A DNA stretch of 64,000 nt, from the NCBI GenBank assembly GCA_021927905.1, contig BLLK01000029.1, forward strand, positions 310,001 through 374,000, read 5' to 3'. This document shows, in pieces, positions 1,715 through 7,351 of this stretch (positions are counted from its first letter, which is position 1; every line of letters starts with the position of its first letter). The notes beneath the pieces were generated by a model, which saw only the letters and a program-made list of their open reading frames with translations, did no database searches and was not told the origin of the DNA. A program made the position numbers and the translations under genes. The DNA is from Chaetoceros tenuissimus. Its lineage: Eukaryota > Bacillariophyta > Thalassiosirophyceae > Chaetocerotales > Chaetocerotaceae.

Positions 1715-4554
1715 CTATTCGTCAAGGTCGAACTTCTTCAACTTCTTTCTCAACTCAATTATTGGTTTCCGGGCGGCAACTGTGAAAATGAAATAGATGA
1801 GTTAGGTATACATTGACCAAAAGTCTTCGAAATGCCCTGAAGACTTTTGCTTACTTACTTGAATCTGAGAATCCAGGATTATGATAATGGAGAGAAGGGT
1901 AGTATCTATGCTGTCGTAGAAGATCAGTTCGGGTAACCATCCCAACGAGTTGATTAGTTCCATCTTGTACTACTGGTATACAACCTACATCGTTCTCAAG
2001 TAAAATAGCTTCAACTTCAGCCATAGTGAGACTAGCCTCAACAGTCTGTACATGTTGCTTCATCCAACCCTTCAACGCACTTCCAAGCTTGCGATCATTG
2101 TATTTTTCATTGCCCTCAACTTTTTTCTTTCCTTTATTTGACTCTGCAGCCTTAGCCTCTTGTCGAAGTCGCTTTTGTTCTTTGTTCCACAAGCGTTGCT
2201 TTGCAGCTGCTACCTCTTTGTATGTAACAAGTCCAATAACATCATTATTATCATCTACAACAGGCAACGCTCTTACATCATATCGAATGAACAAGTCCTC
2301 CACTTGTTTTTCTGTCATTGTCGGTTTGGCACTATTGAAACAAAAAGCATTGAAAAGGACTGGCGGATAGAAATTTCTTGTAACAAGTAAATGACATTTC
2401 AACTTACCTAAGAACAGGACTTGTCATAAAGTCTCCTACAGTCTGTTGATCTGTTAAGCTGGATTCGATTAGATCATCAACAAGCCCCTGTAATTTGAGA
2501 GCGGCATCTTCCTCATCCTCCACCTTGATAGTACAGGACGCAGCCTTGGCATGTCCTCCACCTCCATATGGTTCAAATAATTGATTGAGATTTACATTCT
2601 TCATATTTACTCCAGCCTTAACACGTCCAATCACAATCATAGTCGTTGACTTTTTTGAAGTTTCCTTCTCACGCTGCTCCTGCATTTCAGTAGCCAATTC
2701 TGAATACGCAACAAATTCTTCAAAATCAATTTTCCCATCACCATTTGTATCCATTGTCTCCACAAGATTCTTCAGTGCATCTTCTGATGCTATTACACCT
2801 GTCTGTGAAAGTGCAGCAGCAATTTCATCGTGATCAAGGTATCCTGAACCATCTGTGTCTTTTTGGTCGAAAGCAGCTCGGAGTCTCTTTAGTCTAAGTG
2901 CAGTCTCTCCACCTTTCCAAGCCTCAGCAAAAGTTCTCATGTCACTTTTTGCTTCATTGTCTTCTTTTTTTGCCATTAGTTTTGTAGACAGAACAACCTT
3001 GGCTTGGTCACCACTTTTTGATCCCTTTCCTCTTCGGCCAGATTTCGCTTCGTATATTACTGATAATATGTAGACATCACTACTACTCAATTCTAATGCA
3101 TCTTGTGTTACAGCAGCAAGACCATTGATAAATCCATCAGCACTGAAGAAAAAGTGATACTCTGATTAGATATATCTAAATTGTATGATCAACAAAACTC
3201 CAGAAGAATAAGCTTACCTCAATAATACAGTTGAAACTGTTACACCATGAACGATTGTAGAATTAGTGTTGATAAGCGCATTTGTCAGCACTGACTGTTG
3301 CTCTTGAGATAAAGTCGAATGTGCATGCTCCGCAATCGCAGCTTGACTTGCACCTTGAGACATCACCCACGCAAGTGCCTCTGCATCCCTGACAGTGGTA
3401 GAATCATAACATAAACTTCCAGTATCTGCATGAATTCCCAAAGCCAAAAGAGTGGCTTCTGCTTCTGATAAATCAAATCCCGCATCTCTCAACTGTTCAG
3501 CAATCATTGCAGATACTGACCCCACTTCATCAACAATATAGTCTGTGGCTTCATGAATATCACTATCACCTTCTACATGATGATCAACAATTGTTACCCT
3601 GTCAGCAGATGCGATAAGAAATTCAGCAGGGCCTACTCTTTCTCTTTTTTGTGCATCTACAAGTCCTAACCTGTTCAATCCAGATAAGTCACTGGGTAAA
3701 GACTTCAGAGATCTGATTGGAAAAAGGTGCTTATGAAGTGACAAAAACTTTTGCACTGCTGGATGCGCACCTCTAGGCAATACTACAAATGTCGGATAGT
3801 TCTTTGTCGACTCAAATTCGGAAGACTCACCCGCTTTTGAAGCAGGATGATCATTGGACCATAGCTTTGCCAATCCCACAGCACTTGCCAAAGTATCAAA
3901 GTCAGCAGTACAATGTGTCAATACCACATTGAAACCATCTCCAGATACAACAGGTTTAGGAATTTCTTCCTTTAGAAACTTATTTGTTTTCTTCATCTTT
4001 GCTTTGTTTGACTTTCTTCCAATTTTTGAGTTCTCTTCTGATATATTTTGCTTTCCACTAGATTTCGAAGTAGCTTCTTCAATTCTTCCTTTTGGAACAG
4101 CAGTGACTCTCCCATCGTCATCAGTAGTAATAACGAGACCATTATCATAATTGTATCTACCAGATATCGTTTTAAGCTCATTCTTTTTGTCCGCTGTTTC
4201 TGCCTCTATTTCTTTAGTTCCATCTTCTTCATCTGCTACTAAATCCACAATCTTTTCGGTTGCATTATCTGTAGGATTGCTTTCTGTATTGTCAGTCTTT
4301 TCGTTCACAGTTTCTTTCACACTCTTTACTGTCTCTTCTATATTTTCTATTTCCACATCTATGATATCTTCCCCTTTCACAAAAGTTATTGGCTTTTGTA
4401 TCCGTCTTGAGAATTTGGTGGACTTTACTTTTTCCTTCACATGGAATTTGACAAAACTTCGAGGGTTCGTAATGAATGAATGAGAGCTCTCTATAGCCAT
4501 TAAACATATCGTCGCAAATAATGCAATAAATCTAAAATCCATGAGTGATTTCAT
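1715..4554 (-). CDS. Plastid-targeted DHH/DHHA1 phosphoesterase with inserted EF-hand pair and two C-terminal CBS domains
   Basis: Four exons (4554-4218... i.e. 4554-3218, 3142-2408, 2331-1859, 1779-1715) join in phase to 869 codons. Residues 1-27 look like a signal peptide ending before Phe27, followed by a basic transit-like stretch, suggesting plastid import. A charged linker leads to a DHH domain (about 205-445) with metal-binding motifs around D218/D220, D300, DHH at 324-326 and HAD at 375-377. The DHHA1 part carries the GGGGH motif at 639-643 but is interrupted at about 476-610 by two canonical EF-hand loops (541-552 and 577-588, all calcium-ligand positions filled). CBS domains follow at about 679-735 and 780-845. 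DHH/DHHA1 proteins are nanoRNases or cyclic-dinucleotide phosphodiesterases; in cyanobacteria DHH-CBS pairs are joined to a tRNA nucleotidyltransferase, which is absent here. Inferred role: calcium- and nucleotide-regulated plastid oligonucleotide phosphodiesterase. Confidence 0.85.
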
Positions 4555-5066: not shown

Positions 5067-5786
5067 ATGAACTGTCTTCGTCAAGCTACATTCCGAAGCC
5101 TTAGAGCTACGGCAATAAATAGAAACGTGAATGGTTCACAACTGTGGAACCAACAATATAGAAATGGACATTCAGTGAGAATAATCCTCACTTCTGATCT
5201 TCCAGATGGCAAAGGATATGCAGGAGATGTCATCTCTGTGAAGGCTGGATTTGCTAGAAACTATCTTGTGCCACAGAAAAAGGCTCTTTATGCAACACCT
5301 ACTAATTTTGAGCGTGTTGGTATTCCTGATCCAGACCTAATAGTTGAAACTGCAGAGGAAAGGAAGTTGAGAGAAAGTATGGAATCAGACGAAGATTTGA
5401 AAGCAGCTGACTTCCTCAGACATTATTTGCGCAATAAGACACTGAAAATTTGGAGAATGGTTGACCCAAACTCAGCAATTGGAGGAAGTATGGGAGCACC
5501 TATTCATCCAGGTATGGTTGACTATAAAAATGTAAGAGAGAAGCTATCGAAACAGCTAAAAATCGATCTTGAGGACCATGAACGTGTTCAGATTCATCCT
5601 ACTCCTATTTTACATTCTGAATTAGAAGAGGAGGAGTCTATGGAGAAAATGCTAGAGTCTATGGAAGAAATGAAAGAAGGGGAAGAATGTAAAACGCAAT
5701 TAAAAGCGTTAGGAGAATACCTCGTCAAATTGCACTTGAAGGGAGGACAAGAAGTTGGTTTGAGATTAAAAGTTGTCAAGAGATGA
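5067..5786 (+). CDS. MRPL9: Mitochondrial large-subunit ribosomal protein bL9
   Basis: Single exon, 239 aa. Residues 1-32 are rich in Arg, Asn and Ser and lack acids, as expected for a mitochondrial presequence. The diagnostic L9 N-terminal RNA-binding domain spans about 35-80, with the GKGYAGDVISVKAGFARN stretch (aligned with the bacterial L9 signature GxxGxxVxVKxGYxRNxL) and the NYLVPQKKA segment. The remaining part is longer than in bacteria and ends with a Glu-rich linker (about 190-215) and a short LGEYLVKLHLKGGQEVGLRLKV strand segment reminiscent of the L9 C-terminal domain. It works in the mitoribosome large subunit, near the L1 stalk. The absence of a signal peptide argues against the plastid. 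The gene converges on homoserine kinase with about 120 bp between stops. Confidence 0.85.
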   Translation: MNCLRQATFRSLRATAINRNVNGSQLWNQQYRNGHSVRIILTSDLPDGKGYAGDVISVKAGFARNYLVPQKKALYATPTNFERVGIPDPDLIVETAEERKLRESMESDEDLKAADFLRHYLRNKTLKIWRMVDPNSAIGGSMGAPIHPGMVDYKNVREKLSKQLKIDLEDHERVQIHPTPILHSELEEEESMEKMLESMEEMKEGEECKTQLKALGEYLVKLHLKGGQEVGLRLKVVKR

Positions 5787-5907: not shown

Positions 5908-7351
5908 TTAAATATTGTCTCTGTATGTGATTGCACCAGTACTATATGGTGGCTCTACCTTTGTAACTCTTGCTCCTTCGTGAACAATAGATGTAACAAG
6001 CAACTTTCCTTCAATACCAAATTCCTCTGCAACTTCAAGCATCGCCTTCGCTACCTCATTATCAGTACGCTCAGTCTCTCTCTGTGTAAAAATATCTCCA
6101 CTAGCTCCACTTGTCAAAGCCATAACAGTTGGTCCAGCACCACTTAGGTATGCACAACTCGCTCCAGCATTTTGAGCTGCTTCTATCATTGGAAAAAGAT
6201 ATGGGTATAGTTTATTTCCACGTTGTGGCTGATGCATTTTATCTTCAACTCCATATCTCAAGTTATCAATGTTTCCAGTACACAACGCATGAACAAGAAA
6301 TGCAACTCTTCCAATACTGAACGCCGCTTCACTTCTTGAGATTGTGTCCTGAAGTACTCCTCTCGCATCTGAAGTCTTTCCAATGAAATCTGGAATAAAC
6401 AAAACTGCCTGCATACCTGATGGATGAGGAGCACGCTCAGTTACCCATCGAGTTCCATTGTGAATACCAATTTGAATTCCTCCGTAAATGGAAGGTGCTA
6501 CATTATCTGGGTGACCCTATTATTCACAAGACAATTAGTCTCTATTGATTCAGTAAAAAGATACAAAGATTTGATTGCATCACCTACCTCAATGTTTGAA
6601 GCAATTTGAAGAAGAGCCTCAGATCCCCAGCATGGCAACTTGTGACCTGCAAGAACAAGACCTGCAATGATTCCTCCAACAATAGCTGCACTTGAACTTC
6701 CAAGCCCACGAGCATATGGAATGCGATTAACAACATGGTAATGAAGAGTAGGTACTGGTTTGTTAGCAGCCTTGAATGCAGCTTCAAGACCGATACACAT
6801 TAGATTAGTTTCATCCTTTGGCATCTCCACTGCTCCCTCTCCTTCAGCAGTTATTCCAAATTCATCAGCACGAGAAACAGTAATTTCAGACCACAAATCA
6901 ACAGCCATTCCAATGCAGTCATCTATCGCGAGAAGAAAGATGAGATTCATGACACTTCAAAAAATGTTTTTTTCAAGATGGGTCGCTAAAGCATTATTAT
7001 GCCTTGCATAAATTCAAATATACACTTACATCCCGGACCAACATTAGCAGAAGTTGCTGGTACACGTACAGTCACACTCTTTCTTGGTGTCTTGTTTTCC
7101 TCTTCTACAGACACACGTTGAGCAATTCTCCTTCGCATCTTCTCTTCATGATTGTGAGGGAAAAGAATATCACTCTGCATTCTAGGATCACTTTGATCAA
7201 AAACCATAGACCCAGGACGAACAACTTTTGGCATCCTTGCTTTAGGTTTTTGTTCATTTGCCTTGATAACTGCATATGCAAGTGCAGCACCTGCTGTAGC
7301 TGCTCCAATAGCTGTTGCAATCAACGCATCTTTTTGGTTTGACGAGCTCAT
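5908..7351 (-). CDS. thrB: Homoserine kinase (GHMP family)
   Basis: Three exons (7351-7030, 6922-6588, 6516-5908) join in phase to 421 aa. It phosphorylates homoserine with ATP, committing carbon to threonine. GHMP landmarks are all present: PATSANVGPGYDCIGMA across the first splice junction, the glycine-serine ATP loop RGLGSSSAA, the EGHPDNVAPS motif across the second junction, and the C-terminal LSGAGPTVMAL. The catalytic core starts near residue 92. The N-terminus is unusual: residues 9-29 form an Ala-rich hydrophobic helix rather than a clear plastid signal-plus-transit sequence, followed by a 60-residue basic linker. This could be an uncleaved membrane anchor or a cryptic targeting signal. 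The gene lies head-to-tail with RF3 upstream on the same strand. Confidence 0.9.

Follow-up and report, generated by a model that had tools for sequence, protein, structure and literature searches.

An EF-hand pair predicted within the DHHA1 domain of a cyanobacterial-type DHH-CBS protein of the diatom Chaetoceros tenuissimus

In the family II pyrophosphatase CBS-PPase, a regulatory CBS and DRTGG insert lies within the DHH domain, as described in PMC10742508. The calcium-activated RelA/SpoT homologue of plant chloroplasts, CRSH, bears EF-hands (PMC6881373 and PMC4844381). Chloroplasts are said in PMC4844381 to have very few EF-hand proteins, and CRSH was named there in 2013 as the sole stromal example identified up to then. 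According to PMC6881373, RSH4a and RSH4b of P. tricornutum and their clade are without EF-hands, and two other algal (CASH) RSH4 proteins have N-terminal ones. For Bacillus NrnA, PMC5593865 describes a substrate groove that faces the DHH site and is lined by an arginine strand and the GGGH motif, and a DHHA1 domain that swings between open and closed states; the two arginines that bind the 5'-phosphate are given there as missing in RecJ and in dinucleotide-preferring nanoRNases. PMC12709177 notes that some tRNA nucleotidyltransferases have DHH-DHHA1 domains.

The window analysed here (the whole stretch of DNA, 64 kb of contig C21 in one diatom genome, a 41.0 Mb assembly of 68 contigs) contains a gene for an 869-aa protein in which DHH, DHHA1 and CBS domains occur together with an EF-hand pair. 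Like CBS-PPase, this is a DHH enzyme with a regulatory-type insert inside its catalytic unit. The CBS-PPase insert, however, is in DHH and the second domain is DHHA2, whereas the diatom protein has its EF-hands in DHHA1 and its CBS pair afterwards; Pfam found no DHHA2 in the 869-aa protein, the domain present being DHHA1. The probably plastid diatom protein also resembles CRSH in being a likely nucleotide enzyme with EF-hands, but CRSH synthesises ppGpp and has its EF-hands C-terminally. Pfam returned no RelA_SpoT match in the 869-aa protein, and no EF-hands were found at E 0.01 in the genome's three scanned RSH frames, a result that applies to those frames only. Among solved folds, NrnA, GdpP, DhhP and Rv2837c come nearest to the catalytic half of a cyanobacterial homologue, and to our knowledge these families are without the CBS pair and EF-hands. 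The vacuolar soluble pyrophosphatase of Trypanosoma cruzi (5cuu) presumably has a different catalytic fold, with its EF unit outside that fold. A search of the open-licence literature found no paper on the combination of EF-hand, DHHA1/DHH and CBS, and likewise none on DHHA1 in diatoms; we know of no earlier calcium-gated DHH-DHHA1 enzyme. What is new is a calcium-sensor domain nested in the substrate-binding domain of a cyanobacterial-type DHH-DHHA1-CBS protein that is without the nucleotidyltransferase half.

In silico splicing of the minus strand from 4554 to 1715 joined four exons into an uninterrupted frame of 869 aa, with the stop codon ending at 1715 (Table 1). The 869-aa protein with EF-hand loops at residues 541-552 and 577-588 proposed in the initial annotation was thereby reproduced, together with a GGGGH motif at residues 639-643. 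All three introns (75, 76 and 79 nt) are GT-AG, and their donors match GTAAG in full. Exon 2 is a single uninterrupted frame of 244 codons that runs through the two EF loops, the DHHA1 strands on either side and GGGGH, so that they are joined without any choice of splice sites. Against this stands the reading of the EF-hand segment as an artefact: an alternatively used exon, a leftover of an intron or a piece of a second gene. The model was built from sequence alone, and two weak donor-like sites (4/6 bases; codons 457 and 474) lie upstream of the EF-hands, as that reading would have it; other sites of this strength fall between the loops (codon 562) or downstream (603, 616 and 681), and the better matches to GTAAGT (5/6 bases; codons 624 and 629) are both downstream. 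Given the one open frame in one exon, the full donors and the intron lengths of 75-79 nt, we regard such an artefact as highly improbable, and the gene model and domain anatomy as almost certainly correct. The SHS/F end of the presequence (Table 1) is of a kind that we take to resemble the diatom plastid presequence type; for comparison, the RSH locus L044 reads AFAPTRD. The protein is probably located in the plastid, as judged from its N-terminus.

Table 1 Features of the DHH-CBS gene; positions are those of the window and residues those of the 869-aa protein
Feature	Positions	Strand	Basis
Exon 1, with presequence, long charged stretch, complete DHH domain and first strand of DHHA1	3218..4554	-	donor GTAAGC
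Hydrophobic signal-peptide-like stretch, codons 1-27, ending SHS/F	4474..4554	-	read by eye
Region between presequence and DHH domain, 178 residues (28-205), highly charged and net-neutral	3940-4473	-	sequence
DHH domain, residues 210-374; motifs THCTADFD, VDAQ, VDHH, HADTG	3433..3927	-	Pfam PF01368
Exon 2, with the greater part of DHHA1, its EF-hand insert and the beginning of CBS1	2408..3142	-	gene model and Pfam
DHHA1 strand before insert, residues 469-477 (model residues 23-31)	3049..3075	-	AlphaFold2 model of exon 2
Insert in DHHA1 hairpin turn: linker and EF-hand pair, residues 478-611	2647..3048	-	model and alignment-based loop lengths
EF-hand loop 1, DTDGSGYLDHDE, residues 541-552	2824..2859	-	Pfam and loop pattern
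EF-hand loop 2, DTNGDGKIDFEE, residues 577-588	2716..2751	-	Pfam and loop pattern
DHHA1 strand after insert, residues 612-620, carrying R619	2620..2646	-	model and alignments
GGGGH motif of DHHA1, residues 639-643	2551..2565	-	sequence and alignment
CBS1, residues 681-734, interrupted by intron 2	2202..2439	-	Pfam
Exon 3, with the remainder of CBS1, the charged spacer and CBS2	1859..2331	-	gene model and Pfam
Charged CBS1-CBS2 spacer, some 45 residues (735-779); that of the Pseudanabaena homologue is far shorter	2067-2201	-	alignment
CBS2, about residues 780-830 (exon-3 piece, residues 89-139)	1914..2066	-	Pfam
Exon 4: short tail; the cyanobacterial protein continues into the nucleotidyltransferase at this point	1715..1779	-	gene model and alignment

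Pfam was run on the whole 869-aa protein with curated cut-offs. DHH (PF01368) scored 34.1 bits against a cut-off of 28.1, with the catalytic motif residues present; the EF-hand pair (EF-hand_7, PF13499; residues 531-592) scored 54.1 against 30; DHHA1 (PF02272; residues 609-662) scored 28.2 against 25.9, as a match to the second half only (profile positions 28-94 of 102); and CBS scored 86.6 against 24 in two stretches, from residue 681 on. The domain order that had been read from the DNA initially (DHH, EF-hands splitting DHHA1 before GGGGH, two CBS domains) was therefore recovered with every domain above its cut-off. The residues of each EF loop follow the canonical ligand pattern, within two canonical helix-loop-helix units. 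A generic EF-loop pattern fitted the protein at exactly two places, the two loops; when the protein was shuffled 20000 times, at least one fit arose in 153 of the shuffled sequences, a rarity that argues against chance for two adjacent fits. From these loops we infer that the EF-hand pair binds calcium.

The initial annotation had placed the EF-hands inside DHHA1 and had set structure prediction as a refuting test. When run on exon 2, AlphaFold2 put the pair in the turn of the DHHA1 beta-hairpin, with the exit helix ending 4 residues before the strand that bears an invariant arginine. Confidence in the model was moderate (mean pLDDT 71.8, pTM 0.52), at about 66-75 for the EF pair and below 50 for the linker that precedes it (about model residues 41-76). 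Foldseek matches were weak (2 of 1004 at E <= 0.001, DHH enzymes from 2.2e-3); solved RecJ-type and AlaRS DHHA1 chains aligned across model residues 1-231, with EF-hand chains falling within ~69-165. In alignment, the same turn measured 136 residues in the diatom protein versus 2-36 in 34 cyanobacterial homologues, these loop lengths covering 34 of 54 sequences (L007-L040). Ten more homologues (L081, L085-L093) had short turns when read by eye, and L074-L080, L082, L083 and L084 had no GGGH in the frame taken. The structure prediction did not refute the initial placement: the EF-hands are modelled as nested within the DHHA1 fold.

The best family for the 869-aa protein was the NCBIfam A-adding tRNA nucleotidyltransferase (NF041569; E 2.7e-41), with a score of 141.7 bits against a cut-off of 1440, below which the Pseudanabaena homologue also fell (508.1). 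As a genome search this profile gave no discrimination: all 14 controls matched and none was above the cut-off. From about residue 208 to 831 the diatom protein has the domain order of the family, with 28-39% identity in the best segments and the same catalytic positions; it differs from the family in being without the nucleotidyltransferase head, in its EF-hand pair in the DHHA1 hairpin, in an N-terminal extension of about 200 residues and in the charged spacer between the CBS domains. The first homologue found, the 890-aa Pseudanabaena protein (34% identity in a two-row alignment), has DHH, DHHA1, two CBS domains, PolyA_pol and the RNA-binding domain of the latter; its DHHA1 match was just below the cut-off (24.1 versus 25.9 bits). 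A pattern scan of one genome per species yielded 230 matches, of which 33 were confirmed, within residues 190-864; all 33 were cyanobacterial, the patterns being biased that way by their origin in the two-row alignment with a cyanobacterial row.

Across 194 sampled genomes of the cyanobacterial phylum, the A6 profile matched in 124 at E <= 1e-3, in many of them over the CBS part only, and in 80 (two of them in two pieces; counted manually from the listing) the match spanned DHH to CBS. In 78 of the 80 cases the frame was of 860-1087 aa, enough to hold a nucleotidyltransferase; the other two were G049 (495 aa) and G068 (318 + 681 aa). In the latter (L082; G068:C1:41000-45500) the DHH half and the remainder are in separate frames. 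G049 was considered as a natural DHH-CBS protein without the nucleotidyltransferase and was rejected, since by our own reading its frame apparently frameshifts into nucleotidyltransferase sequence. In a tree from which L082 was left out and in which five of the seven outgroup rows were of odd composition, giving weak support only, the diatom protein grouped with 46 typical homologues versus seven divergent ones of the cyanobacterial phylum (100/100); its place among the 46 was unsure (81/76) and its branch long (2.24). Seven divergent homologues (L074-L080) are without the DHHA1 GGGH, and their substrate-binding half may have degenerated. No relatives were confirmed in viral contigs among 10 and 57 pattern matches. 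Of 19 plasmid records, only that of Pseudanabaena gave a DHH-to-CBS match; a Mycoplasmopsis NrnA matched in its DHH part alone (26%), and the rest matched in CBS. With the Pseudanabaena protein as query (E <= 1e-20), three other plasmid records matched its nucleotidyltransferase half only. The plasmid and viral searches thus offered no outgroup beyond Cyanobacteriota. Cyanobacterial kinship of the diatom protein is very likely, and ancestry in the plastid endosymbiont would be the natural reading of it, but not proof, because sampling was confined to the cyanobacterial phylum.

Whereas PolyA_pol was confirmed by Pfam in the Pseudanabaena protein, and the family profile covers the nucleotidyltransferase domain in the two genomes searched, Pfam found no PolyA_pol match in the 869-aa protein, which ends in a linker after CBS2. 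The diatom genome has at least two PolyA_pol matches, both in other genes. A nucleotidyltransferase half in a later exon was also considered and rejected, as the downstream frame (3-1586) runs the other way and gave no Pfam match at E 0.01, and PolyA_pol lies elsewhere. The DHH-CBS kinship, the end after CBS2 and the location of PolyA_pol in other genes suggest that the diatom enzyme corresponds to the detached DHH-CBS N-terminal half of an A-adding tRNA nucleotidyltransferase. This kinship and the absence of the nucleotidyltransferase half are additions to the initial annotation.

Ten positions (H214, D218, D220, D300, D324, H325, H326, D377, G639 and H643) were identical in all 35 aligned sequences, which include the 34 homologues. 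The strand after the insert reads IVIGRVK and has one arginine, R619, which all 30 rows of the DHHA1 alignment share and which aligned, via the cyanobacterial profile, with an arginine kept in GdpP and Rv2837c. Of the R-x-R-x-R of Bacillus NrnA, only the last arginine apparently has a counterpart here. The model of a cyanobacterial homologue had GdpP, Rv2837c, TM1595, DhhP and NrnA as its best PDB matches, and its CBS pair matched nucleotide-bound AcuB. These data suggest that the diatom protein is likely to be catalytically active. The single arginine, read with the NrnA arginine pattern, points to dinucleotide-type substrates. The initial proposal of c-di-AMP as a substrate was weakened for host-made c-di-AMP: the diadenylate cyclase (DAC) domain had no match at E <= 1e-3 in the diatom genome, with the control positive in 11 of 14 genomes (including Synechococcus elongatus), so that a substrate role for the diatom's own c-di-AMP is unlikely and was set aside, although c-di-AMP of bacterial origin may be a substrate. 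On this sequence evidence, short dinucleotides would be likelier substrates than host c-di-AMP.

These observations are consistent with the following mechanism. The intact, metal-dependent DHH site would cleave short oligonucleotides, most likely dinucleotides, given its kinship with GdpP, NrnA and DhhP. The EF-hand pair takes the place of the turn in the DHHA1 hairpin, the second strand of which bears the substrate-groove arginine, and calcium binding would shift the exit helix and hence the arginine strand. The DHHA1 lid would then move relative to DHH and alter substrate binding, with adenylates at the CBS pair as a second input. In the model, calcium gating of the enzyme is geometrically plausible, and we hold it tentatively, at a little under an even chance; the direction of calcium control is something that we infer. 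If gating holds true, calcium would be linked directly to the turnover of RNA or nucleotides in a diatom plastid, and the enzyme would be a clear example of regulation that evolved by domain insertion in a loop of variable length in bacterial homologues. The fuller proposal, in which calcium (through the EF-hands in DHHA1) and adenylates (through CBS) jointly set the turnover of short RNAs or dinucleotides in the plastid, is possible but doubtful; if true, the diatom plastid would have a calcium-to-nucleotide link separate from RSH, derived from half of a cyanobacterial tRNA-tailing enzyme.

Because the turn is already variable in length in cyanobacteria (2-36 residues across the 34 homologues), the insert could be neutral: a passenger, buffer or docking module in a permissive turn of an ordinary nanoRNase or pAp phosphatase under CBS control. 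The low-confidence linker ahead of the EF pair would suit such a non-regulatory role, which sits less easily with two loops of canonical ligand pattern and with an exit helix only four residues from the arginine strand, a tight coupling on that side; we consider this role unlikely, though conceivable. It is improbable that the protein is instead a sensor that has no catalytic role or acts in another way, with a DHH part that binds nucleotide or RNA but does not cleave it: the nucleotidyltransferase half of the parent family is absent and the seven homologues without GGGH indicate that parts of the family are degenerate, but all eight DHH positions checked are kept, together with GGGGH. Taken together, a nuclear-encoded, probably plastid-targeted phosphodiesterase without the nucleotidyltransferase and with a calcium-responsive DHHA1 insert stands at about even odds in our judgement.

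The diatom genome has three DHH matches, namely the DHH-CBS gene, L002 and L003, and the last two look like DHHA2-type enzymes from frames read by eye. It also has three DHHA1 matches, the DHH-CBS gene and two others. The divergent neighbour of the gene is of ribosomal protein L9 type (5067-5786, plus strand; Ribosomal_L9_N, E 3.8e-16), and a bacterial DHH/L9 fusion family (PRK14538.1, NCBIfam) was among the weak matches of the 869-aa protein; the adjacency of L9 and DHH in the diatom may be coincidental. Beyond it lies the C-terminal piece of a GHMP-type kinase gene (5908-6414, minus strand; GHMP_kinases_C, E 1.9e-8), of which frames at 6498-7351 look like earlier exons. On the other side, the plus-strand frame at 3-1586 (527 aa; no Pfam match at E 0.01) is convergent with the DHH gene and runs off the window start. 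Elsewhere in the genome, the silicon transporter domain PF03842 had 11 matches (best 705.6 bits), while the control matched in 1 of 14 genomes, below the cut-off, which is in keeping with a diatom host. Three adjacent matches lie in a listed 1459-aa frame (L100, L101; G000:C17:442278-446357), possibly a fused triple transporter, and the third of these contains two stop codons.
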